64,000 bases of DNA from Diphasiastrum complanatum (Eukaryota; Streptophyta; Lycopodiopsida; Lycopodiales; Lycopodiaceae): the NCBI GenBank assembly GCA_029204225.1, contig CM055101.1:40895427-40959426 (forward strand), given 5' to 3'. The notes beneath the pieces are model-generated. The model was not told the DNA's origin. It worked only from the letters and a program-made list of their open reading frames with translations, and made no database searches. The position numbers and the translations under genes are program-made. Positions 4,555-41,426 of the stretch are shown here, piece after piece; positions within the stretch are counted from its first letter, which is position 1, and every line of letters starts with the position of its first letter.

Positions 4555-6310
4555 TCACTGCCACAAGAAGGGTCACGCAGCCATGGATTGTCGCCAGAAC
4601 CCGAGGGACAAATCAGTACAGAACATACAGGAGAATAGCAACAGTTCATCCTATGTCGAGGAGCCCGAGAGCTCAAAAATGGACGAAGAAAGAACGAACA
4701 AAAATTGTTCGACCGCCTACATCTGTGAAGACGTGTGTGCAGCGTCAACATTTGACACACATGAGGTGATCCTAGACTCAGGAGCCACCTCACACTTCGT
4801 GATATCAGGACGAATAATGTCTGATTTCAGAAGTGCAGATCCTTTAAGATTCATAGTTCTTGGAGATGGATCTAAGTATCAAGTGAACGGTATTTATTCA
4901 CTCTGGCTCAACACCAATGGCAGAGACAGACGACTCGAAGACGTTCTATTCGTGCCTATTCTGCAACAAGACTTGCTCTCTGTAGCAAGAATAGCAGATG
5001 CAAGGATGCGTGTGACGTTTTCTGACGAAGCATGCAACGTGATTGATGCCAGTACCAGTACATTGATCGCTCAAGACAGAAGGAAAGAAAACCTATATCA
5101 TATGAAGGTATGCCTGTCTGTAGATCAGGTTCATCAGACTCATGATGACCAACCAGACACTCTGTGGCACAGAAGACTATGCCACATGAACTCAATGAAA
5201 CTTTACCAAGCAAGCCATCATGGAGCAATAATAGGGGTCAGCATCTCGAATGCAACCAGTTCGACCACCTGTGATGCATGTTTGAAGGACAAGATGTCAC
5301 GCACTCCATTCATCAAAGACTTCTATAGAATGACTAAGATTCTGGAGTTAGTGCATTCTGACATCTACGGACCATTCAACGTGATCTCAATAGGAGGTTC
5401 AAAGTATTATATAACCTTCATTGATGACTATAGCAAATTTGCCAGAGTGTATTTTATTCAGAATAAATCTGAAGCACTTGACAAATTCAGAGAATATGTG
5501 AATTGGGCTGAGAGATGTACATGCAACAAGGTTAAGCAGATCAGGTTAGATCGAGGTGGCGAATACATCTCGAATCGCTTCACTTACTTCTGCAATGATC
5601 GTGACATCATTCACAAAAGGACTACAGCCTACACGCCGCAGCACAATGGTGTTGCTGAAAGAAAGAATAGGACCCTGATGAAAGCAGCCAAATGCATGAT
5701 GGCCTACTTGAAGGCTCCAAGGGTACTGTGGGCTGAAGCAGTAGCTATAGCCGCATACATCCAGAACAGGACAGGTAAGTCTGGTGTCCCTCACACGACA
5801 CCACACGGGCTATGGTGGGGTAGAAAGTCTAATCTGTCTCAAGTTAGAATCTTTGGCTGTGCAACTTATGCACACATTCCTGATAAGCTTCGAAAGAAGC
5901 TTCATGAGAAACCCGAGCAGAGATTTCTTGTAGGTTATGACAACAATTCGTCATACTACAAAATCTACATGCCAGACACGAACATTGTGAAAACAGTGAG
6001 AGATGTCAGATTTGATGAGAGCAGGACAATGGCCAATGACGATCCTGTCAGCTATGAAGTTCTGGAGAGACAGTATTATGACCTGCCGCCAATGACAGAA
6101 GGAGCAGAGGACGAACACGAAAACAAAGATTTTCGAATCGTCTCCCATTCGAGCGACGAATCTGAAGAAGAAAGATTCGAGAGGCAGCCTACTGCTACAG
6201 TTCCTATAAACCAAGATGGCTTCGGACCGAGCAGAGCAGACAAAGGCAAAGGCAAAGGCAAAGGCATTGTTGTCCCAGGAGGATCTCCTAGAAGGTCGAT
6301 AAGACCATGA
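4555..6310 (+). pseudogene. Copia A Gag zinc knuckle, aspartic protease, GAG-pre-integrase and integrase
   Basis: The reading begins with a knuckle (CHKKGHAAMDC, about 4560) just before the first ATG at 4583. Then come the protease active site ILDSGATSH (about 4770), the GAG-pre-integrase zinc region (WHRRLCHMN ... CDACLKDK, 5160-5300) and the integrase core with its three acidic residues: HSDIYGP (about 5355), RLDRGGEY (about 5550) and NGVAERKN (about 5650). The product would cut the polyprotein and insert the cDNA. The frame ends at a TGA (6308) where CGA or TGG is likely; the same frame continues into RT. This part is the best preserved coding segment of the element but lacks most of Gag upstream. 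Confidence 0.92.
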
Positions 6311-6328
6311 AGAGCACCAACAAGATAT

Positions 6329-7948
6329 GTGCTAGACAGCTCAGCTTCCGTATCAGAAGAGTTCTACGGATTCAGTGGCGAACCACAGACTTTCGAGAAA
6401 GCGATTGAAAGTCCAGAAAAGGACAGATGGATCCAAGCCATGAACGAAGAGATGGAGTCTATGAGGAAGAACCAGGTATGGACGTTGGAGCCATTACCAC
6501 ATAAGCGCAAGACTGTCAAATGCAAATGGGTTTTCAAGCTCAAATATGGACCAGATGAGAACATCACGAAATACAAGGCAAGACTGGTAGCGAAGGGATT
6601 TTCTCAGAGATATGGTATTGACTACTCTGAAACCTTCTCTCCTGTCATCAAACATTCATCCCTACGTCTGTTATTTGCATATGCAGCAGCTTATGACCTC
6701 AGGATCCACATTGTGGACGAGAAAACAGCCTTTTTGCATGACGAACTAGACGAAGAGGTCTATATGGATCAATCTCTATGATATGTCTCGAATTCACTTT
6801 TTGACTATGCATGCAGAATGCATAGAAGTATCTGCGGTCTGAAACAATCAGCCCAACAATGGTATAAGAAGAAAGATCAAGCCCTGAAATCATTAGGATT
6901 CAAGCCTCTGTTGGCTGATTCCAATGTACATGTCAGAGTTATAGATGGGCAGATCATCATCGTAGCCGTATATGTGGACGACACTCTGATACTTTGCAGG
7001 AGTGAGCAGCTAATTGCTGAAGTGAAGACAGACATCTCGAATATTTCGAGATCGTGGATCTGGGAGAAGCCAGGTGTTACCTAGGCTTACAAATTGAAAG
7101 GGACTACGAGGGAGGTAAGCTACACCTTCACCAGTCCAGATACACCCAGAAGATCCTAGAGGACTTTGGGATGCTGAACTACAAAGGAGCGAATACTCCA
7201 ATGCTCGCAGGGACGGTGCTGAGAAGTGTTGACTGTCCGAAGACTGAGGAAGAGAGAGAACAGATCCAGCTCACGCCTTACAGGAAGCTGATAGGATCAC
7301 TGATGTACAACACACGTCCTGATATTGTTTATGCAGTATTCATGATGAGCCAATTCTACATGAATCCAGGCTCGACACATTGGAAGATTGCAAAACGCAT
7401 TTTGCAATATCTTCAATTAACAAGGGATTATGGCTTGTGTTATTGTCATGATGCAGGTTTCAGGATACTTTTCTACAACGATGCTAGTTGGGCATCTCTC
7501 AAGGACGATGGTAAAAGCGTCTCAGGAAGATGCACTATCGCATCAGGAGCAGTAGTTCTCTAGGTCAGCAAGAAACAGACCATTGTGGCCCAGTCATCTT
7601 GCGAAGCAGAGTACATTGCAACAATAAAAATGGCCAACGAGATAATCTGGCTAAGGCAGTTCCTGGACGAATTGGACGAAACAAGGAACGAGCCTCTGGT
7701 CTTGCAGATGGACAACACCTCTGCAATACACCTGACAAAAGATCTCGTGTTCCATTCCAGAACGAAGCACATTGCGATCAAGTACCACTTGATCAGGGAT
7801 CTAATTGAAAAGAAGATGCTGCAAACCACCTTCATCGGAACGAAGGACATGGTTGTTGATATCTTCACCAAAGCCCTGGACAAAGGACTCTTTGAGAGAC
7901 AGAGGTGTAGTCTCGGGATCGTAAAGCTATCATGCTTTAAGAGGGAGC
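6329..7948 (+). pseudogene. Copia A reverse transcriptase and RNase H
   Basis: RT starts with the typical W-x-A-M-x-E-E-M block (WIQAMNEEMESM, about 6430), then KCKWVFKLKY and KARLVAKGFSQ. After a stop at 6780 it continues with SICGLKQSAQQWY and the catalytic box VYVDDTLIL (about 6970). A frameshift near 7040 moves it into frame with YLGLQIERD and the RNase H part (YNDASWASLKDD at about 7480, QSSCEAEYIA at about 7590, DNTSAIHL and HIAIKYHLIRD). TAG at 7561 replaces the Trp before VSKKQ. Three lesions in RT/RH make the product dead. Order PR-INT-RT-RH is diagnostic of copia. Confidence 0.92.
7937..7948 (+). promoter_or_regulatory. Copia A polypurine tract
   Basis: TTAAGAGGGAGC immediately precedes the TG of the 3' LTR, where plus-strand synthesis would start. 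Copia B has the closely similar CAAGAGGGAG in the same position. Confidence 0.75.
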
Positions 7949-27855: not shown

Positions 27856-29243
27856 GGGGGGGGGGGGGGCAGAAGAGTTCATTAAGGTTCAATATGGTTG
27901 CTATGGTGCGTCGTCATTTCGGATAGGTTCATTATAGTTTGTTGTACTTCTAACTCAAACTTAACATTACGTTCAATCCACAATGGACGTTTCTAATGAA
28001 ATGCACACGATGGCTCTTAGGTTCAATCCACAATAAATGTTTCTTATGAAATGCACAAGATGGACCCATCTTGTGCATCTCGTTTGAAACATCCACTTCA
28101 CCCATGAAGTCACTTTTACTGCTAACAGTAGTTTTAGAATTTCCAACCAGCTTTAGAAGCCAAGGAAAACTTTGGCTGCCCAAAAGTCAAGGGTGGTGCA
28201 CCAGCCACCCAACACTTACAATCTCAACCAACAAAGGGAAAACAATCAAAGAAAACGACGCAGTGCTTTCCAGCGCATGACAAGTTGATGCACAGAGGAG
28301 GACAGAATTTCAGTAATCAACATCTGCTTTCCTCTTTCTAGGTATCATTGGTAAGTCTTAAAGATATTTAACAACACGTCCATTTGGTCGCCTACATGTG
28401 GTAATGCATTCAGATTGTGTTTCCACTGTGCCCAGTACGTGTGTACAAGTAACTAAGTATGCCAAAGTTTGTCATACCAGTATGCCACAGAGTAGCAGTT
28501 TGATAGAAATACATATGATCTTTAACGAATTTACAATCAAGAAATCTAGCTTGTTATATTCCAATTTTAAGCTTATCAGAGTTGTTTTAGTGTTTGGTAT
28601 ATTCGTTTTTTAGTTTTGTCGGGTCTTGTATAATGCTAGGAGGCAAAAAAAAATTTCATAATTAATGACCTGGCATCAGACGATAAGCATACTACGACTT
28701 CTGTAACACAGATTTGTGTTTGACAGCATAAATATTTGTTTCGGTGCACGTATTTTGCCAACTATGTCACACCAGTTCTCCTTGAAAGAAACTTATGGTT
28801 TTGGTAATTCATACTAAAAGCATGGCACTATTTGCAGCTACGTGATCCAAAAACAATCAAGCATTTCCCAGAGAAGCTAAACCTACTTGTGCTTATGCAT
28901 GTTTCCCCCCTGTAGTAAGAAAATAACTGATCCAGGAACCAAACCATTAGCAGACACGGAAAACACTTAGATGAAAGGTAAGCGCCCGGAGCGTACAGAG
29001 GCTTCGCCGATAATACACAAAAATCTGACATAACATTTGAAAAAACTGACACGACATTTGATTATGAAAAAGCAGCAAGGAGTCGGCATAAAATGCTCAC
29101 CAGTCAGCAGATAGACAGACAGATAAAATTTAGACTGCGATGACCAAAAATCAGGCAACCCTAACAAGAACAGCAACCAAAAAATTGTAGCTCTATTTTA
29201 AAAGCGGAAAAACGAGGCTCACCCCAGTGCCGATGCTGCTCAT
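16543..29243 (-). CDS. PAG1: 20S proteasome subunit alpha type-3 (alpha-7 / PAG1), 11 exons, intact
   Basis: Structural alpha-ring subunit of the 20S proteasome; it helps gate the chamber where ubiquitinated proteins are degraded in cytosol and nucleus. Exons read leftward: 29223-29243, 22601-22683, 22363-22402, 21608-21691, 21265-21338, 20585-20671, 20404-20488, 18287-18333, 18083-18148, 17075-17165, 16543-16617. They sum to 753 nt (250 residues plus TAG; Arabidopsis PAG1 is 249), every junction is GT-AG and in phase, and there is no stop or shift. It starts MSSIGTG, then the alpha signature YDLSVTTFSPDGRVFQVEY, VVGIKCKDG, SNRRIHAVQRHA, STLYWWLRPFG, GGYDRDGPQLYMIEPSG, HDEAKDKAFELEMSWIC and an acidic tail ending EEDMDAD. 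HAAM and FGSA replace the usual HAGM and FGCG. Introns 1 (6.5 kb) and 7 (2.1 kb) hold retroelements. The only intact host gene here. Confidence 0.97.
18860..19700 (+). pseudogene. Copia integrase fragment in PAG1 intron 7 (antisense to host)
   Basis: Recognisable GAG-pre-integrase and integrase pieces: LYKLCTTIPNQ, DRLWHERYGHLSYKSMHVL (about 19180), ILELTHSDLWGPTQ (about 19360), YYFLTFVD, and SGEYIAGKFVELC (about 19555). Many stops and shifts. No LTR found on either side; an old fragment carried by the host intron between exons 7 and 8. Confidence 0.85.
23850..24945 (-). pseudogene. Copia C reverse transcriptase and RNase H
   Basis: Reads leftward through ARFRFLEGNYG, a Gly-Asn version of the RT start region (about 24770-24790), MTDLGLAHYCLEIQIHRDK (about 24715), NMLYKFDFMNCKLVHSPMDPG and an RNase H region extending to about 23880. 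The YVDD-containing part is missing between these blocks, so RT is internally deleted. Many stops. Confidence 0.78.
24952..25160. mobile_element. 209-bp hAT-like MITE nested in copia C
   Basis: Flanked by the direct 7-bp repeat TTGCAGC (24945-24951 and 25161-25167), with copia coding sequence resuming on either side. Ends are loosely inverted (ATAGTTGCACGAATCG against GGTTACAAGCCGATTCG). The interior is rich in CGGTTCGAA and CGATTCGAATCGG words, so it can fold back on itself. TSD length suggests hAT (usually 8 bp); no coding capacity. Confidence 0.72.
25170..25990 (-). pseudogene. Copia C integrase
   Basis: Shows C-x-x-GKQTRRPFK, LLDIIHSDICGPMQTPS (first catalytic Asp), FFITFIDDYLRRAAVYF, TLRTDMVVNTY (normally RTDNGGEY, so the motif is damaged) and the C-terminal VWTGSKPSLKHFKV and FVGYSSSNGMYRLYNP stretches (25300-25500). 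Several stops and shifts interrupt it. Its 3' continuation is split by the MITE at 24952-25160. Confidence 0.83.
26030..26890 (-). pseudogene. Copia C gag and start of pol
   Basis: Starts MDSQSKSGLMVDKLDGSNYH (about 26880) followed by a stop where Trp is usual, then KFKMKVMLMAKEI, the copia Gag N-terminal pattern. Further left, the 26129-26551 stretch reads in two frames with VLYVPNMATNLLSVSRI, the segment that follows the protease in copia elements. Frames shift several times. Confidence 0.75.
26987..26998 (-). promoter_or_regulatory. Copia C primer-binding site (iMet type)
   Basis: Minus strand TGGTATCAAAGC directly abuts the LTR end CAACA; one base differs from the canonical TGGTATCAGAGC. 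Confidence 0.85.
26999..27629 (-). repeat. Copia C 5' LTR
   Basis: Bounded by TGTTGG...CCAACA inverted ends, with the PBS directly adjacent on the left. Possible target-site sequence AATTG follows at 27630; its partner at the truncated end was not identified. Confidence 0.75.
27819..27869. repeat. (GA)n(G)n tract in PAG1 intron 1
   Basis: GA repeat running into about 25 consecutive G. Such a G-run can form a quadruplex and is a likely site of sequencing or assembly error. Confidence 0.95.
27966..28066. repeat. Short tandem duplication in PAG1 intron 1
   Basis: GTTCAATCCACAATGGACG at about 27970 and GTTCAATCCACAATAAATG at about 28020, each followed by TGAAATGCACA-GATGG; about 50-bp period, two copies. 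Confidence 0.75.
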
Positions 29244-29349
29244 GACTGCAACAAGAATAATGTAGTCCTTGATCGGAAACGAATCCAAAATCAAACTATC
29301 GATCGATCCAACAGCAGCAGAATACAAAGAGAAAAGAGAGAAGAAAGGG

Positions 29350-29395
<46 letters not shown>

Positions 29396-29400
29396 TGTGG
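29244..29400 (-). promoter_or_regulatory. 5' UTR / core promoter side of PAG1 with (CT)n tract
   Basis: On the sense (minus) strand a (CT)20 run (29352-29391) and further pyrimidine-rich sequence lie 100-150 nt before the ATG. Pyrimidine tracts are common in plant core promoters and 5' leaders. No TATA box is claimed. Confidence 0.55.
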
Positions 29401-30101
29401 GGGAAGAAGCCTGGTCACGTGCTCGCCAAGACATGGCAATTTTCTATAGTAGAATGGTCACTTTGTATATGTGCATGTAGGGGCCTCTAGGCTATGCTCT
29501 CTTGAATCACTCTCGCCATCAATGGAGCTTAGAGACATGCTCCACTCTCTTGAGTGAGAGACTTTTGCTTGGCCCAACGAATATTTGTAATGTGGTGAAT
29601 CTTCAAATTTCAATGGTTCAAATTCTCATTAATGATGTGCATGTTGTGTCTCTCATACCTTCCCAAAGCATGAACTCTGCTACATATGCGCAAGTATGAC
29701 CGCCAAGTTACGTCACACGTGTAAACTGATGGAAAGGCCCCTCCCCTCTGTGCATTTGGCTTCTGTTGTGTGCACATGTATATCCACTTTAATGAAAACT
29801 TTGTGCTGGTTTACGGGATTAAAAACCATTGCTTCACCATATCTCGCAAATATCCCAAATTGATGTGCTACTTAAGGAAATGTCAGTTTCCCTTTACATG
29901 CCTAGAAGATGTGAGGGCCCTCCACCATCCAAGGATGAGAAACCGAGGAAGCCAGAGGAAGGTTGATGGATGCTAAAGGTAGCTCGATCGAATGTTGGTA
30001 GCAAGTTGTAGCCTCCATATATGTCCTTAATGACACACGTTGGACATAGAACCCGTTATCTTCAACACAATGTGGTGCAAAGTCATTACGGGATATTAGA
30101 A
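29401..30101. other. Intergenic, no gene recognised
   Basis: Between the proteasome gene promoter and the candidate large transposon. No motif or repeat identified. Confidence 0.5.
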
Positions 30102-30536
30102 CTCAAAATGGGCCCTTTGTCAAGATGTTGTTTTTGACTTCGCACGCTTTCAACGCTTATGTGTCCCAATGAATGGTGTCCATCTGTGACGAACTATAAC
30201 AGTGGTTGACGAATTGTATTTAACTTTCTCAGCCAAATTTTCGTGATTTTCAAATATCCCGAGGGGCAGAACAAACAATTGTGATTGGACCACAGTTACT
30301 ACCCGAATACTCTTATGTTGCCCGTCATTGTTCACTCGAGGCTGATTTGACATCAATAGTCATAAACTGTAATTAACTAATCCTTGTAGTTAAGGAACTT
30401 CTTGTCATTCATAGGCATACCTCTCATTTTCTTCATTCTATCTCTCATTTTCTTGTCATTCTTAGGTTTACCTCGCAATTACTACATTCTCTCCGATCTC
30501 AGCTTGCGTACTCGTATTTTCGACTAATGGCTACAC

Positions 30537-31861
30537 ATAATCGGAGACCAAGAGGGAACCATTGATGCAATCAATATTTGCAATGAAAAAAATGCAGAAG
30601 ATCAATGGATACCAAGAAGATATCGAAAATACCAATGGATCTTGATGCATTCCTCTGCAAAAGGCTCATTCCGAAAAAGAAAAAGATTGGATAACATCTA
30701 TAGAAGCTCTTGGAAAGGTAGGATAATGGATTTTAAAGTATCACCTGCCGGTCAATCTATCACGGAAGTTTTAGTTCAGCATGCTTATATTCACAATGAG
30801 CTCAACATTCATGATCTGAATCCAAATGATAGAAGGAAATGCAATTGTACGTTTTCAGATTCAATTTCTTTAGATTTAGCATTTTCTTTAAATTATATTT
30901 TTCATGAGATGTTTTTGTTGGTTTTGCAGATTTGTATCCATCAAATTTCGTTGAATGGCAATCAATTCAATCGATTGCAGGAATAATCGATGTCATACAT
31001 TCGGATATCGGTATTTTACAATATAAAGGTCGTTCTCCAAAATCACTTTTAGAGTCAGGCGTTTTTTTTTTATGATCACACCTATTTTCCTGATAAAAAT
31101 GGTTTAGTTGGTAGATTAGAGCCATATCCTCTACCAGATTTTTTGAACGAGGATGCAACAATTTCAGAAAGTTTTCGATCTAGGCTATATATTGATATTC
31201 AGAGTATATTAAAATGTAGCACTGGATCAAAGAATAATAGATTAAGTTGGTATCTACCTTTTACTATTTTTGTTGATTTCTTTTCCAAATGCAATGTTTG
31301 GCAAACGAAAACAATGTTTATTTATAAGGACTTGAGTGCTGATATAATCGCCGAGTTGTTGGATGATGGTTGGGATACAAAACAAAATCAGCAAGTTGAG
31401 TGCAGAGTATGTTACTCAATTATGACATTTAAATATCACATCAAAAAACAAATGCTCACTTTGCTGCTGTATTATAGAAGATGGATTAAATGCAAAAATG
31501 TTTGGAAGCCACTTGATCAAGATTTTGGTATAAACCCTCAAGAGCAACTTCAGATAACAGTGAAAAGAAATGACAACATTCTTGCAATGGTTGATGTCAA
31601 GGAAGATTGGTGTCTCAATCACATTCGATCAGAACTAGACATGTTGCAATTCGATCTACCTCAGTACTATCAATTTTTCAATGGTGTAAAGGTACGTTAG
31701 CCATATAAAAATATTCATTTTTTTCTATTTTTAAGTGAATCGGTTTCATAAAATATATAACTAAAACAATTTCTCTTGTGCAGGTAAGAGTAAGGCAGGA
31801 AGAGCATATAAATGCAAAGACATTAAAACATCCATCGAAATTGAAAATCCATAGATTATGA
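30537..31861 (+). pseudogene. Gene A: unknown protein with C-terminal ubiquitin-like pattern
   Basis: Not a family I can name. Exon 1 (to 30846) reads MATHNRRPRG, then after one shift DAINICNEKNAEDQW and SPAGQSITEVLVQHAYIHNE. An intron with GT at 30847 and AG at 30929 leads into YLYPSNFVEWQSIQSIAGII. A ten-T run near 31065 breaks the frame before DHTYFPDKNGLVGRLEPYP. A second intron, 31692-31783, leads to a last exon of 26 codons ending at TGA 31861. The last about 75 residues (LQITVKRNDN ... FFNGVKV ... LKIHRL) line up strand for strand with ubiquitin: hairpin, helix, then LP-x-x-Y and F-x-G. That fold is inference. Its spacing from gene B is convergent. Confidence 0.6.
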
Positions 31862-31944
31862 ACTATGGAATTTTGTATTATGTAATACAATTTTTTGTAT
31901 ACATCATTTTTGAAAATATATGAGCCACTTTTTCTATGAGGCTC

Positions 31945-32095
31945 TTTCATTTCTATGATCTCCATTTCCATGGTGCAAAAGACAATGTAATTGTAACTGG
32001 ATAATATGAGTTTTCGATAGCAAGATTCATTGTCTCCTACAGGAAATGCACTATCTCCATTGGGGAGATCTTCAGTCACTTGAACTCCAGTGATC
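31945..32095 (-). pseudogene. Extra copy of the last exon of gene B
   Basis: Reads KISPMEIVHF, stop, ETMNLAIENSYYP, closely matching VSPMEIMHFRQETIKLVIENS of the true terminal exon at 32528-32671. A TAG replaces the Gln codon region and the similarity fades after about 30 codons. A decayed duplicate, or an abandoned alternative last exon. Confidence 0.65.
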
Positions 32096-32527
32096 ACTAC
32101 AATCGACGCTTGCCCTTGTTGATGTCTCATATATATTGGTTGTATTTTTGGTCTTCATTGTCTTGGTCTGTATTGTCCTTGTCTTGGCATATTTGGATAT
32201 GTTCAGAAGATGAACTGATGAAAGCTTTGTTCTAACAAATCTAAGTTTGTCGCATGTTTGGATTGGTTGTGGCAAAGGTTCCATCAGATCATCTTTCTGA
32301 ACTTATCCAAAAAAAAACCATGGTAAAGGCAAGGCAAACCAAGGCTATGAAAAACAAACATGTCGAAAAACCGTAGAAGTTGATGATGAATGTATCATAA
32401 CCTGAATTAATAACAGGAAAAAAAAAAAAAGTAAGAACAACCATTGAAAAACTGTAAATATATTTCTATAAAAAATTTCTATACATGTGTCTCATCCACA
32501 TCAAGTGAGACGAATATTTAATCAGTA

Positions 32528-33570
32528 TCAACTATCTATGATCTCTAAATCCATTTCTCCAGTTGGAAGTAGCTTGGGTGGAGAACACTCGGCCACTGCA
32601 ATTGGATGTGAATTTTCAATCACAAGCTTTATGGTCTCTTGCCTGAAGTGCATTATCTCCATTGGGGAGACCTTCGGACATTTAAATTTGAAAAAAAACA
32701 TACACACAGTTAAATGTAATTATTCAAAGATCAGTTAATAGGAATTTGAATATGAAAAAAAGCAAAAACACAATTAAAAGTAATTAATTGAAGATTACCT
32801 CTTCCAGATTTGGAAGTCCATCTTGTAATGCAAGCCAATTAAAGAAGTGTTTGGCAATGCATACGGTATACCAACGACAGCTGATTGAATCAACCTGCTG
32901 GGAGGATTGCAAAAATCCAAATTTTAACATTATGAGATATCGGATCAAAGCGCAAGATGTAAGAATAAAATCTACAACGGAAACAAGTGCGTATCGAACC
33001 GATATAAAAAAAATTGATTGAATATCGGACCAGCGCGCACGTTATGATAATAATCCAATCAATAACTACAAGGGCGCGTCGAACCGATGTTGAAAAATTT
33101 ATACCTCTGCATCAACCATTTTCAGCTTCGAATATGCTTTTGCATTTGGTACTGGAAAGAGTTCCAGTATTTTCTGTATATGGGTCCTGGCAATTTTGTG
33201 TGTGTGTGTGTGTGTGTGTAATAGAGTTCATTTTTAAACAAACTGGATTACACACACCCTCATCATTGACGTACAAGGACAACACATATAAGCTCCAATG
33301 ATTACTGAAGAATCAATGTAAAATCAAAAAATTCAAGAAAATAAAATCTGAAAAAAAAAAGACACTTACTTTGTTATGTATGGCAGCACAAGAATTGGAG
33401 TATCCAGTCTGACGTATTGGAACATATCATTGTGCAGACTTTTAAAATCAGGAAAATCAAATGCAGCCATGAATTGAAGGGGAAACAATGCAACATCTAT
33501 AAACAATGGGGTCTGGAAGAACTCCATCCAGTACTGAATTGCCCCACCTCCTACATTGTCCCCTAGTTTC
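32528..33570 (-). pseudogene. Gene B, C-terminal part: Ulp1/SENP-like (C48) cysteine protease
   Basis: Ulp1-family proteases cleave SUMO or other ubiquitin-like modifiers. Read leftward: YWMEFFQTPLFIDVALFPLQ and RLDTPILVLPYIT, then a GT-AG intron (33305-33369), then NNHWSLYVLSLY with the catalytic His codon at 33298-33300. MNSI stands where D-S is usual, so the catalytic Asp may be Asn. A (CA)10 run shifts the frame before FPVPNAKAYSKL. Exon 32799-32897 reads QVDSISCRWYTVCIAKHF: Gln six residues before Cys, exactly the Ulp1 Q-x5-C spacing, but with Arg after the Cys instead of Gly. The final exon, 32528-32671, begins VSPMEIMHFRQET and ends at TGA. Splice sites are canonical and in phase, so decay is recent. 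Confidence 0.75.
32936..33090. promoter_or_regulatory. 18-bp motif cluster 1 (four copies, inside a gene B intron)
   Basis: Copies at 32936-32953 (+), 32987-33005 (-), 33022-33038 (+) and 33074-33090 (-), all variants of GATATCGRWTCARCGCGC. They lie in the 207-bp intron between the His and Cys exons of the protease. Confidence 0.7.
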
Positions 33571-34518
33571 TAATTCACCTAGTATCTAAACTAGAAAGGG
33601 GGAGACCAGCATTGGTCTTTGGCATCCTAAAACTGTATCGAGGACCTAAACCTTTAAGATACGTGTTTAACAATTGGTCATATTGTACATATTGAGGAGT
33701 ATTTACAAAGGCAAGTGCAGGGGGTGACGGAAGTAATACCTGATAAACCACATAAAGAATTGTCATTCAAAATTGAATCTACCTTTACACTAACAAAATC
33801 ATCTAAATCGCTTCCAAGAACAGGAGGAGAGGAACTAATATCTATAGGTTTAGGAAGAGGAGGAGATTTAGGAGGTGGAGAATTATTAGGAGAGGAAGAT
33901 TTAGCAGGAGAAGTTAAAGATGGAGTGAGAGGAGAAGAAGGAGACTTAGGAGGAGAATTATGAGGAGAATGCCTAGAAGAAAGAAGAGTATTCATAGGAG
34001 ATGGCTTGGAAAACTCCCTCGCTTTAAATAGACGGTCAAGAGACCTCCTCTTCTTTGAAACACTCCCGCTCTGGGTTGGATGAGATTGCTTTCATTTTTT
34101 TCTCTCTGAATCTTTTTTTGGAGGAGAGGAGGGAGCAGGTCTAAAGTGTTCAGCAAACTTGTCATATGTGTCCTGAAGCCTGAACACAATGTTGAAATCC
34201 TTGGGCATGATGGTCACCCTCTTGGCATGGATAGCTGCAACAACAATATCTGAAAAAAAATTCACCTGAAAATCCTCATATGTTGTGTACAGTGCCTCAA
34301 TTGCCATTACAGTCCATCTCACATCTAGATAGACTGCTAAGATTATTTGTCTTCTGAAGCTTCCAAATATCCTTGAGCCAGGGTGGGTCTCTTCTTTTGC
34401 CCCTTGGCCTAGGAGGTAGTGGTGGTGGATGAGGTGGTGGTTGTGGATTTTCCTGACCCGCACCTGAAATTGGTATTCCACCTGAATGCCCTCGTGCTGT
34501 CTGCTTGGTCAGCGCCAT
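33571..34518 (-). pseudogene. Gene B, N-terminal part: histone H3-like domain and Ser/Pro-rich linker
   Basis: ATG at 34518 gives MALTKQTARGHSGG, closely following the H3 tail MARTKQTARKSTGG (Lys4 kept, Arg2 to Leu, Lys9 to Gly). A Pro-rich insert replaces the rest of the tail, then KDIWKLQKTNNL matches the start of the H3 core (REIRKYQKSTELL). After a one-base shift near 34340 it resumes at RWTVMAIEALYTTYEDFQV and AAIHAKRVTIMPKD, the last almost identical to canonical H3. The LPF-x-RLVREI helix is missing. The frame continues past one TGA (about 34092) into KKRRSLDRLFKARE and a long Ser/Pro-rich linker (33700-33990), then SFRMPKTNAGLPLSSLD and the protease. A divergent H3 fused to a Ulp1-like enzyme; function unknown. 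Confidence 0.8.
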
Positions 34519-34528
34519 TACTGTGAAG

Positions 34529-36090
34529 TAGCGGATCAGCACGCAATAATGTTGATTTTAGGATCAGACCTCAGGTTGGCCGCGTCGAAGCAATACCTGA
34601 GCTCAACAAATCCGTTAGCTGGTAGCAGATGGGCGCGAGCGAGTAGTAACGGATTGAAGGAAGTTGTTTTTGAGCGCGCTGAATCGATATCGCATGGATG
34701 CAAATAACTATAAGCAAAAAAATTTCAACGTCGTCGATCAGTATATATGGAAAAAATAAGAAATGATTGCAAACGTGGTGATTTGGATATCCGAGGTTCA
34801 GATTACGATGATGATTACCCATAGGCTTGTCAATCAAATCAATCTAAATATCCATCAATCATTAAAATGATTAGTCCATACAAGAAATAATTTCAAATAA
34901 AGAATGGTCACATCTACAATTAATGCTACAAAAGTATACTATCACACTTCTACCATTAAATGCTGAAATTGACAATGTTAAGCTTTAAATATCAGACCTT
35001 TTTTTATATCCAATAATTATAATTTTGAAAAATTCCGAAGGCCAGATTTTCACCTGATAGCTAATCAACGCGCATATAAAGCATTTGAAAACCAGAGTAT
35101 GTATTCTCATGCGCTCATCCGATATTGGACGGAATATGAATGATCAGAGCTTGATTTGATAGATTCTGCATAACTTTGGCCAGTATGAAGAGTCTTCCGA
35201 ATCAAGCTTTGATCATGCATATAGGGTCCAATAGTTTCAAAATTTTCAATAGTATTTTGGTCCTGGAATAGCGATTCGACGTGCGCAGTCCAAATGCAGT
35301 AAATACATCATCTGCCAAGCGCGCTGATCCGATATCTCATATGCAAAAAAATCATACTGGAACACATAATGAAAGACTTATGAAAATGTTCTGAATGAAC
35401 GTTATCTCAAAAGAAAAAAATTTGTCTTTACGGTGCTTAAATAGGATGAGAGATTGAAATAATTCTCCTCGTACATGTTTTTCAATGATATCCATTAATC
35501 ATTTGTTTATAATTTTTTTAATGATTATTCTAGAAGGCTAGTGATTGTCTATTTAATGTATTCCGACGTAGGTACATATTCTCGGGTCAGGGCTAATGAG
35601 GATTCATTGAATCTAGTGATAGACTAGTTAATGTATTCCGGCGTAGGTACAAATTTGTCTCACTCTGATTGGTGGATAAATATATTGAATCTAGTGATAG
35701 ACTAGTTAATGTATTCTGGCGTAGGTACAAATTTTTCTCACACTGATTGGTGGATAGATATAGGCTGTAAATTTCAATTCATTATTTGACAAATGTATGG
35801 TTGTGATCAACAGGAATTGGCTATAAATATGTGCACCACTTTCTATATTTCGATTCCGTGATCTTTTATTCTGAACTCTCTAGCCTTCTTGTTTTTTTTT
35901 TTTTCATTCTCGCGATATCGAATCGACGCGCGCCATCCCTTGTTGTGCATGCTCGTATTCATTCAGACGCGCTGAATCGATATCAGCCATCTCCGACAAC
36001 AACTTTTCAGAAAATTTCATTCTCAATCTCAGCGCGTGTACTTTACTTTATTCCTCTACCGATATTTATCTGTCGCGTTGAACCGATATC
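34529..36090. promoter_or_regulatory. 18-bp motif cluster 2 in the divergent promoter of genes B and C
   Basis: Nine copies of the motif in either orientation: 34529, 34674, 35056, 35111, 35268, 35319, 35914, 35967 and 36072. The first is 11 nt before the gene B ATG and the last 10 nt before the gene C ATG (36100), and the rest fill the 1.58-kb spacer. The core GATATC-G plus CGCGC is far more GC-rich than its surroundings. Likely a shared protein-binding site (transcription factor or transposase); inference. Confidence 0.7.
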
Positions 36091-36099
36091 GGATTCAAT

Positions 36100-37579
36100 A
36101 TGGCTAGTTCTTCCATGGCCTCAGATGACAAACTTATGGATTTTTTTTAATGCCAGTGACATTCCATCTGACAAATTAGAGTATTTTGCTAGTATTTTTT
36201 TTTTAACCCTTCGATGTCGATAAGCTAGTTTATGATAATCGTTATAATTTAATTTCTTATCTTGATAATTTTTTTCAGATTATTAGTACTCATGTTTTGG
36301 ATATAGATAATTTCTGTTTCGTTCATTTTCAGGACCTTGTACATTCCCAACCATCCTGTAAGCATAAACACAATATATACTATGATATCCACAAAAGAAT
36401 ATGTCGCCTTCTAATCAAAGGAATGGCTTTTGTCTTCTACATATCTACTGAAATTTCAGATGATGAGTCTGTTGGATCTTCAACTGTTCCATTGATCGAA
36501 GCATCTGCACCTGCTCCAGTTGATGTAAATGATGCAGATATTGATATAGGGGTTGAAGCTGAAGCTACTATGGCTTCAGATTATAAAAAAATTCTTCCTC
36601 GTTCTATAATCCTCTCTGATTCTCTTCCATTTGCATCTCTGTCAATTAATTAACTCTACTCGATGTTCTTTTATATTTTATAAATAATGAATGTTATATT
36701 TCATATAATGATATAGAAGATGTATTGAATTTGAGAGAGGATGAAATCCTCTCAATTTTTGCTTAAAATTTATCAGAATTTTTTGACATTGTTGATTACT
36801 CATATGATGACCTTGAAAGTGAGATAGATTATGATAAAGATGGCAATTGGAAATCTGGCAATGAGACCTTGGAGGCCATGATTGAAAAATCTAAAGCCTA
36901 TAAAGAAACTTTGCCTACAGAGGGAGAATTTTTGGAATTTCAAAAATAATATTTCCCTAGGACTAGATATATCCCCTCCGGAAATGTAGAGGCCATTGGA
37001 GGACATGACATCAACAAAGCAAACGTCGTTGATTACGATGATTATGATCTGGTAAGTAGATATTATATTGGTATTGATATTGTTCAGTTTTCTTATTGAG
37101 TTTGCAGTGTTATGTAATTTATTTTCTTTTCTCATTTACAGGATGCTATTGAAATAGATGCCTTTGGTATGAGACATGGAGGCGTCCGAGGTGTATCAGC
37201 CGGGAGAAAAGATGTTTCTCTATCTCATTATTTGAAAAACTTTCAAAATAATGAGATTTGTATATATCATTCATCTTATAATCCATATGCAACCACTGTC
37301 ATTATGGCCATCAAATCATTATCAGTTTGTTTAGGAGGCCATAAGTACGCAAGAGGAACATATTAAATAATTTTTGTGAAGAGATATTTGGCTATTAAGA
37401 TATTGGGTTATACTCTTAATGAGACTACGAAAAGATTATCTGCAATGGCCCTTTATTCGAGTTACATTGATATGAGCAAGAGGAAAAATTTAGAATTTTT
37501 AGATCCATATGAAAGGAGATTATTCCTTCATGACAATACCATCCGTCTGAATCTTGAAGAGGATGATGATGATAATTAA
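36100..37579 (+). pseudogene. Gene C: unknown protein with acidic stretches and acidic C-terminus
   Basis: I do not recognise the family. Begins MASSSMASDDKLMDFF, shifts in a T-run near 36145 into NASDIPSDKLEYFASIF, then FVHFQDLVHSQPSCKHKHN and an Asp/Glu/Ala-rich segment (36450-36600). After further breaks comes LREDEILSIF, then YSYDDLESEIDYDKDGNW and PRTRYIPSGNVEAIGGHD. A canonical intron (37052-37141) separates DYDDYDL from DAIEIDAFGMRHGGVRGVSA, HYLKNFQNNEICIYHSSY and a last part ending EEDDDDN at 37579. One in-frame TAA at 37364 and several T-run shifts. Acidic proteins often bind histones, which would suit its neighbour, but that is speculation. Convergent with gene D. Confidence 0.55.
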
Positions 37580-37614
37580 ATAATTTTCTGTAATAATTTT
37601 TTGATATATTACAA

Positions 37615-40264
37615 GGATCTCTCTTTTGTAATGAATTTAAATGCCTTTTGAAATATCGTAATACTTGGCGAGTTTTTAGCTTGATATCTAAATTTTGCTC
37701 TTCTGTAAAACCACTGAAAAAGTTGAACTAAATATTTATTTCTTGAATTGTGTCCTCCATGATTTGTTGCTCTATGAAATGCTCCCCTTGCTTGCCAATG
37801 AGATTTTTCCATGTCTTGTGATGACCAGATACTTAAGCTCTCATATTCCTTTGCAAAATAAGTTGTATGATGAAGAAGGATGTGCTGCAAACAATAGTTT
37901 TGATTAGTTACATCAGTAGAAAAAAATATAAGCTTGAATGAGAATATTACCAGATAATGATATAGATTAGCACCATGTAATAAGTAACATTGTTTTTTCC
38001 CCAACAATCATGTACAAATTTTACAAATGTGGTGCAATGATTTTGCAAAGTCCTCATATCTTCTGATGATAGGTTTTCTTTCCTGATAACACCTATGAGT
38101 TTGTCTAAATTGGTCCACACTTGTCCTTTTTCCACGCGATTACTTCCTTCCAGTGTTCGTGTGGCTTGAACAATTTCTCTTCATATTTCATATCTGACAC
38201 TTGATTCTTTGCATGTGTGATTGGATAAGAATCTTCTTGCTTTAGCACCTCCAATTGATGGCTTATTAGGAACGTTTCCTTTTTTTCCGGAGAGTCTGTC
38301 ACTTTTTTCAATCGTGACATTCCCTTTATGTAGTCTTGCATTTGACAGAACTATATCCAACCTCCTAATTGCTACTTTAGCCACTGACTCTAATTTATGA
38401 TTCCATGCTAGTAGAATATGCAAGTAAATTAGTTTTACAATAATACGAACCTCAGCATGCAATGTGCATATGTGAACATATTTCAATGGAATTGGCAGAA
38501 CACTTTTCATATTTGGATCTTTAGCTTCTCGTGTTGGGCCGGTGTTTGTTGATCATCCCAAATTCATATTGTAACAATCCTTCATGCAATAAAGACATGG
38601 ATGCTTTGATGTTGCCCCATGAGAGACATTATACATACATTTTAATGTTTTCAAATCCCCTACAAGGTGCCATTGAACTTAAAAACTTCCATGGTTTTCG
38701 ATTGTAAATTTCTCACCCTCCAAATGTCTCTTTATAATCTCGCCATAATTTGTCCTTGAAAATATCCATGATAGTATTTTATGGTCCTCTTTCAAGACTT
38801 GTAGAAAAACAAGTAATGCATAACATGTCAATAAAAACTGGCAAGGTATGAATTGTTAATATAGATATTCTAAATGAAAATGGAAATGTATATCTGGAAT
38901 GCCACCAACCACCATATGTGATTTTTCGATTGAACACTAAACGTTCGATCATCTGTATCTGAAATTTTGTTCATCAAAGTGACACTCACACGTTCCAACT
39001 TCTGACCCTTGATGATTTCAGATTCATCCAATTTTATTACAATAATGATCTTTCCATTTACTTGATGTTCGTCTAGTTTATAGAATCAAATAATGTATTT
39101 TAGAACATTTTCAATATCAAGGAAAATATTATTGCAATCGTTGTAATTGAGCTCACAATATTCTGATTTATATAATTCAGTTATATGAAGTGGTTGGCCA
39201 ACTACTTTGAACATTCCGTCATTATAAAAATTCTAGCTAATCTTACTCGATATGGACGCGGAAGATTAATTTTCTTCACCATCACTTGGGAAAAAACTTT
39301 TTTAACTATTCTAAAAAAATAGAATAAGCATTTCTGTTAATTCCAGATAATTACATGCACCTTGTATCACATTCGCATCCAAGTATAATTGAACCTTAAT
39401 CAAAACAGTCTCTACAATTTCATTTTTCATTTTTTCAAACTGAGCATTTTTTATCATTTCCTTTGCTGACTTTCTTGGTAAAACATGACTTAAAGATGAT
39501 CCAATGCATGAACGATCTGTTAAATAGTTTTTTGCCACCAAACATGATCTGCAGCAAACATATGAAACTCAAATTATGTTTAATAAATAAATAATCCATG
39601 TTATCAGTGCAAATCAAACCTAAATGACATATACAAATCAAATAAACAGTCTAGATGACAACATACTTGAATGTTCGAATTCTTTTTTTCTGTGTGTAGA
39701 TAGGTCATCAATATTCTTCATCAGTACTCTCTTTCTTTTCCTCTTCATCATTGTGTTATTGATAACTTTTAGATCAACATCAGACTTTAAACTCTCGGAT
39801 CGCAACTTTTCCATGGATTCTAATATTTCTTGGTTTGATTCTCAAAGAGTAGTGATAGTAGCATTCAACTCTGACATAGCATTCTTGAGTGCATTGTTTT
39901 CAGCACTAGTGTGTTGCACATAATGAAGCAATTGTTGATTTGCACGTTGTAATTGTTGATTCAGACAATATATGCTATGCATTCCAATATCATGCAACTT
40001 TTGACAATATCCAAATAATCCGCTATTTCCTTCACATACATATCTGAGAAGATGAGTTACGGACTTAAAATCTGGACACAAATTGGTAGCTGGATCATTA
40101 GGATAAATTGATCCATCCACCCACAAATCTATATTCATATGATCATTCATTCTCAATTCTCTAACTATTGCTGCAGCATTCTCTAAAACTTTTGCATTTT
40201 TCTTAATAATTGGAGTGCATTCAACATGCAAATGGAACATTGCCATTGTTAAAGCTACAATCAT
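37615..40264 (-). pseudogene. Gene D: long coiled-coil, Cys-motif protein resembling an uncharacterised transposase
   Basis: Read leftward from ATG 40264: LWVDGSIYPNDPATNLCPDF, a Gln-rich coiled coil (QQLQRANQQLLHYVQ), a TGA at about 39842 in place of Arg, and a basic stretch KRKRKR. Further on come KIIIVIKLDESEIIKGQ (about 39040, a possible first acidic residue), VGDLKTLKCMYNVSHGATSKHPCLYC (38600-38680, a D-L-K block followed by C-x2-C), IPLKYVHICTLHAEVR, and a C-terminal SIWSSQDMEKSHWQARGAFH and LVQLFQWFYRRAK. The order of D-L-K, C-x2-C and a late S-Q-x-x-E-K-S-H block recalls transposase-like proteins of several eukaryotic DNA transposons, from memory only. Several stops and frameshifts. 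It would be the mobility gene of the inferred element. Confidence 0.55.
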
Positions 40265-40653
40265 GTAAATGAATCTACCTACAGTAAATCAATATGAATA
40301 GATCTAGCATTCCTTACTTTTGTAATGTTTATGTCGCATTGAAAAATTGTCCTGCCTCATATTTCACTTTTAGCATACAGTGATTTCAAAAGTTTTGCTT
40401 CTCCCGCTTCAGTTTTTGCATTGAGCACACCAAGATTTTCAGTCTTAAAGCTCTAGTCCCGAACTTTGGAACGAGCATGAAGAGAAGTTATTACATCTCA
40501 TGCTAAACTAACTATTGTCTGAAGTTAACCATACTAGTTAAACGTCGGGCAAGGTCGAAAACAAGAAAAACGGCGACCAGAAGTTACCGGTTTGCATTCT
40601 CTCTCTACGTAACCTCTCTCTAAAGTGAAATTTCCTAAAGAGCCCATTTTGAG

Positions 40654-41426
<773 letters not shown>

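Follow-up and report, generated by a model that had tools for sequence, protein, structure and literature searches.

An H3-like domain and a Ulp1-like protease share one gene in a probable family of multi-gene DNA transposons of Diphasiastrum complanatum

Introduction

Can a histone H3-like domain and a Ulp1/C48-like protease belong to a single gene, and if so, is that gene one of the host or of a mobile element? The question is raised by positions 32528 to 34518 of a 64,000-nucleotide stretch of contig CM055101.1 (40,895,427 to 40,959,426, assembly GCA_029204225.1) of the lycophyte Diphasiastrum complanatum, hereafter the window. The original prediction described here one open minus-strand gene, with introns in phase, in which an H3 tail and core are joined through a basic linker to a C48 protease, and it read the H3-like part as a histone mimic. 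We find that the two domains do share one gene in intact sister copies elsewhere in the genome, and that the window locus is very probably a dead copy, belonging to a family that we call W, of a four-gene DNA transposon with terminal inverted repeats (TIRs) that encodes an H3-like domain, a basic linker and a C48 protease.

Results

The fusion gene in sister copies

Two copies of the related family B, L023 and L027, each read as four exons of 467 codons in total without a stop, with GT..AG at all three introns, whose positions equal those of the window's three introns; splicing was inferred from sequence. Exon 1 carries the H3 domain and the linker and runs into the protease. Spliced L023 matches the Pfam families Histone at 97.3 bits (residues 27-123) and Peptidase_C48 at 32.8 bits (residues 316-439), the latter match beginning 12 residues before the end of exon 1, and spliced L027 matches the same families at 94.3 and 30.6 bits, against curated cut-offs of 26.4 bits for Histone and 20.7 bits for Peptidase_C48. 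The presence of an H3-like domain and a Ulp1-like protease in one gene thus holds for these two intact copies, as read from their DNA, with both domains above the cut-offs in one spliced frame; the two parts are not always separate genes, nor do they lack profile matches, and in this respect the original prediction survives. A third B copy, L016, is open in exon 1 but interrupted by a stop in exon 2, and its catalytic Cys is gone; the deletion-bearing L018 was left out, so that three B copies were spliced.

No fully intact gene was seen among the W copies fetched. L036 reads through the H3-like domain and linker in a single frame interrupted by one TAG; in L035 the H3 α3 region runs on into the protease start, with two stops; L033 and L034 have the CA repeat in frame, with stops nearby in L033. 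An alignment of five protease rows from families B and W (L016 not included) shows about 35% of residues shared between B and W proteases, with NDHWS, KMNS and Q-x5-CGWYT invariant in the five rows; His-Trp, Gln and Cys-Gly are accordingly present in 5/5. A profile made from this alignment found weak matches in the PDB, of which the two best are SENP8 (0.0072) and the third is SENP7 (0.027), with SENP2 at 0.088.

Selection among copies

Each variant was counted once across six W copies, including the window. In the protease, 47 variants are synonymous and 63 non-synonymous (P = 2.6e-7 against neutrality), and in the linker 26 and 84 (P = 0.91), both as raw counts without correction for mutation bias; the protease differs from the linker with P = 0.004 and from the H3 core with P = 0.05. 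The L023/L027 pair follows the same trend, with ratios of 1.4 (H3), 3.3 (linker), 0.43 (protease) and 0.81 overall, all from small counts. Purifying selection among the W copies suggests that the protease was probably functional while the copies multiplied; the H3 part gives no equivalent signal.

Relatives of the H3-like domain

A search of the genome with the Histone profile gave 153 matches (150 of 6325 first-look candidates scored). Thirteen are near-identical and strong (E <= 2.6e-45), and the eight of these that were fetched are canonical H3; the others score at most 109.5 bits, many of them in long open frames. Eighteen of the 19 lower-scoring loci that were fetched, which were chosen rather than drawn at random, lie in the repeated element families A, B or C, among them L009 of family A with a Histone score of 101 bits. 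Many H3-like matches in such a genome can therefore be transposon genes and not host variants.

Family A (13 loci: L009-L015, L017, L020-L022, L024-L026) has a long open reading frame (ORF) that begins with MARTKQTAR or a near form where the start is in view, followed by a long polyproline linker and an H3 core mostly ending in RRERN, and its copies are mostly more than 90% identical. Family C (L019, L043) has an H3-like gene with a MARTKQTAREPQ or MARTKQTARKPQ tail, and L019 also carries, at about 6301-6590, a further H3 that is B-like and decayed. No significant protease match is present in the stretches fetched from families A and C, the best being 7.9 bits with E 0.21 in family A, so that H3-only and H3-protease elements seem, on their sequences, to coexist.

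In a tree of H3 cores, families B and W group with a protein designated P0029 (90/92), and families A and C form another group (96/93). The deep branches are weak, P0029 and the C core are long branches and, no confirmed CENH3 of this genome having been found, the tree cannot decide descent. P0029 is a 391-residue protein from another data source (lgn, contig of 3375 bp) with a MARTKQTMRK tail and a divergent H3 core, beyond which lies a long unmatched tail with ILPYV near residue 350. This C-terminal tail gives no significant alignment with the fusion linker or protease. P0029 may be a fusion in another organism and is kept as a lead. A protein search returned 34 matches that cover 25-48% of the query, which is its H3 part, and those inspected (not all) have no linker or protease match; a second protein search returned seven, covering 10-13% of the query.

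Lys9, whose loss the original prediction noted, is replaced in 13 of the 14 element tails counted, by Gly (7), Asp (5) or Glu (1), so its loss is common and not universal; L012 and L015 are close duplicates, and the thirteen are therefore not all independent. The residue is kept in the eight canonical H3 genes fetched (L001-L008) and in the near-canonical L028. The family B tail (MDRRKQTRRD) is more diverged and was left out of this count. The genome has 26 exact MARTKQTARK starts, and at least that of L043 lies in an element.

The window copy

The H3-like tail of the window, MALTKQTARGHSGG, opens at the ATG at 34518 on the minus strand and reads on to WLKDIWKLQKTNNLSSLSR and a stop at 34299, while the H3 core, RWTVMAIEALYTTYEDF...AIHAKRVTIMPKDFNIVFRL, sits in a different frame whose ORF closes with TGA at 34094. 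The minus-strand frame that contains AIHAKRVTIMPKD matches Pfam Histone (PF00125) with E 2.3e-9, at 38 bits against the cut-off of 26.4, and a frame-tolerant alignment of 34560-34100 with H3 scores 117, compared with 29 +/- 4.5 for 20 shuffles, so the H3 signal is not due to chance and the tail and core assigned to this strand are confirmed. Relative to the other copies aligned, the window has deletions of 45 and 2 nt in H3 α1, near 34339-34327. The missing LPF-x-RLVREI helix, taken in the original prediction as a trait of the protein and as the ground for calling it a histone mimic, is therefore an accident of the window copy and no family trait, and that argument loses its premise. An early alignment that ran continuously through H3 α1-α2 in the core frame was rejected, its α1 half being spurious since the other copies show α1 to be deleted in the window; its middle part, scored alone, was marginal, with 1/60 shuffles and 2/60 random places scoring equal or higher.

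The linker continues in the frame of the H3 core, and the protease pieces occupy further frames (Table 1). Both the HW motif and the Q-x5-C spacing are found in the protease part, the introns are GT..AG at all three places and their positions recur in family B, as predicted; it is their phase that fails. A CA repeat in the exon after the HW motif shifts the frame, so that the three introns give no single open reading, and with all three spliced out stops occur before the end in each of the three frames from 33569 onward. With the differing tail and core frames and the stops at 34299 and 34094, this rules out one open gene in the window. Exon 3 reads C-R here and C-G in all five W copies fetched (L032-L036) and in L023 and L027. 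Measured against at least 4/5 copies, the damage comprises the 45-nt and 2-nt deletions, two further deletions, of 18 nt and (at 33567) of 14 nt, one extra base each at 33740 and 33580, and other changes. A candidate GT..AG intron near 33780-33740 that would have rescued the linker frame was discarded, because the other copies read through this region and the window has a 1-nt insertion there.

The profile check of the translation succeeds in the window for the Histone family only, Peptidase_C48 being matched in L023 and L027: the window protease part matches no Pfam family at E <= 1 and does not reach the PF02902 cut-off, has no PDB match at E <= 10, and has no homologue at E <= 10 among 5.8 billion proteins within the length and word limits of that search. 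About 600 bp downstream, part of the last protease exon recurs in decayed form (32004-32084 versus 32606-32686, 77% identical).

Table 1. Features of the element in the window, in window coordinates
Feature	Position	Strand	Remarks
Mobile element, 10,589 bp	30084..40672	-	H3-Ulp1 locus and three other decayed genes
Left terminal inverted repeat	30084..30115	+	starts CATTACGGG; start shared with other copies
ORFX, convergent, no assigned function	30528..31697	+	pieces 41-64% identical to the L023/L027 counterpart
Protease exon 4	32528..32671	-	VSPMEIMHFRQET..DLEIIDS, stop
Intron 3, GT..AG, 127 nt	32672..32798	-	position equals that in family B
Protease exon 3	32799..32897	-	with Q-x5-C
Intron 2, GT..AG, 207 nt	32898..33104	-	position equals that in family B
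Protease exon 2	33105..33304	-	NNHWSLYVLSLY..KMNSI, frame-breaking CA microsatellite, then HIQKILELFPVPNAKAYSKLKMVDAE
Intron 1, GT..AG, 65 nt	33305..33369	-	position equals that in family B
N-terminal part of C48-like domain (KLGDNVGG..LVLPYIT), exon 1 end	33370..33569	-	14-nt deletion at 33567; profile match
Basic Ser/Pro-rich linker and start of protease region	33575..34172	-	TGA 34094; 18-nt deletion 34074; +1 at 33740; +1 at 33580
H3-like part	34173..34518	-	tail MALTKQTARGHSGG, linker to αN-like WLKDIWKLQKTNNL, then in another frame α2-α3 ending AIHAKRVTIMPKDFNIVFRL
Gene 3, divergent, decayed, no assigned function	36207..37576	+	syntenic with L023:2173-3601
Putative transposase gene (CLYCMKKAK..HAEVR region), decayed	37612..40288	-	synteny with L023
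Right terminal inverted repeat	40640..40672	-	inward CATTAGGGAAAAATATGGGCTCAAAATGGGCTC; placed by the inverted repeat alone

The element and its copies

The genome searched comprises 1.74 Gb in 5176 contigs. Positions 32400-34620, used as a DNA query, gave 62 matches including the query itself (40 of 2138 first-look candidates scored), and these contain 14 other near-full-length places (query 1-3 to 2192-2221) at 82-87% identity. Five W copies were fetched, four of them near full length and L034 partial, and are 91.4-92.6% identical to the window over ungapped columns. The longer query 28000-39900 gave 55 matches on many contigs (15 of 8095 candidates scored); among the matches listed, none extends to the left of 30084 and one starts exactly there (C7:16084609). 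The homology of copy L039 likewise starts at window position 30084, at L039:565, with its own CATTAGGG. An inverted counterpart of this end at 40640-40672 gives the span of the element; the right end, set by that repeat, was not confirmed in another W copy, the homology of L042 stopping at window position 40517. Six flank stretches were fetched for three copies: L039 and L042 match the window element, L037, L040 and L041 do not, and L038 matches in simple repeats only, so the copies concerned differ in length or are cut.

Families A and B have ends that start with CATTAG, as CATTAGGGCCCTTTTTGG... in family A and CATTAGAGGAGTTCTC... in family B, and one B copy (L030/L023) has 35 identical bp at both of its ends. 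Family B is represented by two complete copies, of 8681 and 9305 bp. Inverted repeats thus bound a dispersed unit, as in a TIR DNA transposon.

When the translated ORFs of the window are compared with L023 and L027, they fall into one colinear series of four genes with identical order and orientation. Conservation is highest in stretches of the putative transposase, where it reaches 97% over 33 amino acids. No MULE or hAT domain, and no convincing match to a capsid, polymerase or ATPase family, was found in the element pieces searched against Pfam. We therefore describe the W/B element as a putative transposase, two genes without assigned function and the H3-Ulp1 gene, and do not place it in a superfamily.

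Two short motifs are concentrated in the element: CGATATC has 11 of its 17 window occurrences inside it (2.8 expected by length) and GCGCG 14 of 25 (4.1 expected). Many of these occurrences are non-coding, lying between the starts of the H3-Ulp1 gene and gene 3 (34.5-36.2 kb) and in intron 2 (32.9-33.1 kb).

Elsewhere in the genome, at L028 (C7:39675000-39684000), a near-canonical H3 gene broken up as though by introns lies some 3 kb away from a fragment resembling the transposase of this element superfamily; this may be chance or a capture intermediate. The window also contains Copia-like retrotransposon remains at 4.5-8.0 kb and 51-55 kb, with gag, integrase and reverse transcriptase-like ORFs named by eye.

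Discussion

Whose gene this is can be answered from the frames, the copies and the element ends taken together. A functional host gene fusing H3 to Ulp1 was suggested by the presence of both motifs and of plausible introns in the window, but the frame breaks and stops, the many dispersed copies and the inverted repeats at the element ends rule it out for this copy and make it extremely improbable. Equally hard to credit is the idea that an H3 pseudogene and a protease remnant came to lie side by side by chance: the window copy by itself offers no single frame for the two, yet the H3 domain and the start of the protease domain lie in one uninterrupted exon in all three spliced B copies (L023, L027 and L016), and the pair is found again in both B and W, which refutes that reading. 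Ulp1 and adenain belong to one fold group, and a multi-gene layout on both strands with a histone gene and such a protease would also suit an origin from an endogenous large DNA virus or a Polinton-like element with adenain-like protease genes. We consider this very unlikely, given the spliced genes, the short TIRs and the want of a convincing capsid, polymerase or ATPase match in the pieces searched; exon 1 of L023, compared with 2.9 million viral contigs, gave eight pattern-matching stretches and no confirmed relative, and a plasmid collection gave no match (records of this same genome may be excluded from both collections). A decayed four-gene transposon copy is thus the reading that we hold with considerable confidence for the locus.

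What the H3-like part does for the element is less settled. SUMO supports heterochromatin silencing in many eukaryotes, and the domain anatomy allows the tentative proposal, less likely than not, that the element encodes this fusion as a factor against silencing. In this scheme the H3-like part would gain access to chromatin by binding H4, a histone chaperone or a reader of the H3 tail, with a tail of its own that usually lacks Lys9, the residue that takes the silencing mark; near the element the protease would then strip silencing factors of SUMO or a SUMO-like modifier, and this local removal would allow the element to be expressed and to spread. The alternative that we take most seriously, and to which we give somewhat less than an even chance, keeps the same transposon fusion gene and regards H3 as the passenger of an old capture, with only the protease mattering, for example in processing or stabilising element proteins. 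It draws on the selection analysis, in which a signal is detectable among W copies on the protease and not on the H3 core or linker, with a like trend in L023 and L027. It fits less well with the H3 domain standing in frame in two B copies, at 97 and 94 bits, even though the proteases of B and W have only about 35% of residues in common, or with the family A and C loci, which keep an H3-like domain where no significant protease match was found in the stretches fetched, so that H3 is retained on its own too.

Several observations weigh against a counter-silencing factor or against parts of the assignment on which it is built. The W H3 core, with 17 synonymous and 45 non-synonymous variants (raw counts, P = 0.28), shows no detectable purifying selection, and the H3 domains of L023 and L027 differ by 15 non-synonymous and 3 synonymous changes; together these suggest that the H3 part may be drifting as a passenger. 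No catalytic Asp was recognised in the aligned protease rows, which have KMNS in that region, and PF02902 matched only 2/5 of those rows even at E <= 10, both from family B, so that no W row matched. In the PDB search, unrelated proteins score near SENP7 and SENP2 and fall between the SENP matches. The fourteenth element tail, that of L043 in family C, keeps Lys9. A target-site duplication of at least 3 bp was seen in 0/4 copies with both ends read (window, L011, L023, L027), and the putative transposase comes close to no Pfam cut-off and matches nothing in the PDB.

Comparison with known systems places the fusion between several of them. It resembles the Ulp1/SENP SUMO proteases (PF02902) in its HW motif, its Q-x5-CG motif and the above-cut-off profile match of family B, and differs in that the window copy is dead and reads C-R; we know of no cellular Ulp1/SENP member with a histone domain. 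The H3-like part recalls CENH3/CENP-A in its fast-evolving core, and family B has one extra loop 1 residue relative to canonical H3 where none is apparent in W cores; unlike CENH3, H3 here is repeated in mobile elements and fused to a protease. Among transposons, hAT elements of Dothideomycetes (Pyrenophora tritici-repentis, Pseudocercospora fijiensis and others) carry an H3 gene, according to the accessible text of the reports (PMC3538342, PMC6710886). There too a TIR DNA transposon carries and multiplies an H3-like gene, and the P. fijiensis copies are heavily RIP-mutated; the H3 described there is a separate gene, with no protease mentioned in that text, whereas here it is fused to a C48 protease in a plant-hosted element without a hAT match and without a visible 8-bp duplication.

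The other half of the fusion has its own parallel in KIU (Kaonashi), genes of the VANC type that have captured a Ulp1 domain and reside in plant Vandal/MULE transposons, as presented in the accessible part of that report (PMC13317346). Both are element-encoded accessory proteins with Ulp1 in a multi-gene plant DNA transposon, and VANC relatives counteract silencing, so KIU offers a precedent for Ulp1 in counter-silencing transposon genes, the contribution of the Ulp1 domains themselves not being established there. KIU differs in its partner domain, which is VANC and not a histone, and in belonging to non-TIR MULEs; the pieces searched here yielded no MULE transposase. The short motifs to which VANC proteins bind have accumulated in non-coding parts of their elements, as the accessible text describes (PMC5735166), and the clustering of CGATATC and GCGCG may recall such targets, as a lead and not a test. 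The original prediction knew of no described H3-Ulp1 fusion, and none appears in the titles and abstract openings listed from a mainly open-access literature.

The finding brings together, in one protein of a many-copy, multi-gene element family, two kinds of transposon capture so far known apart, that of H3 and that of Ulp1. A stronger reading, which we regard as unlikely on present sequence evidence, is that a class of transposons encodes its own histone-variant enzyme, an H3-like protein with Lys9 usually replaced that would enter the element's chromatin or dock on it and, through a built-in SUMO protease, undo silencing there; if true, this would be a histone-guided, self-protecting counter-silencing system. 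The family offers a directly testable case of a mobile element that possibly uses a histone-like domain against host chromatin silencing.

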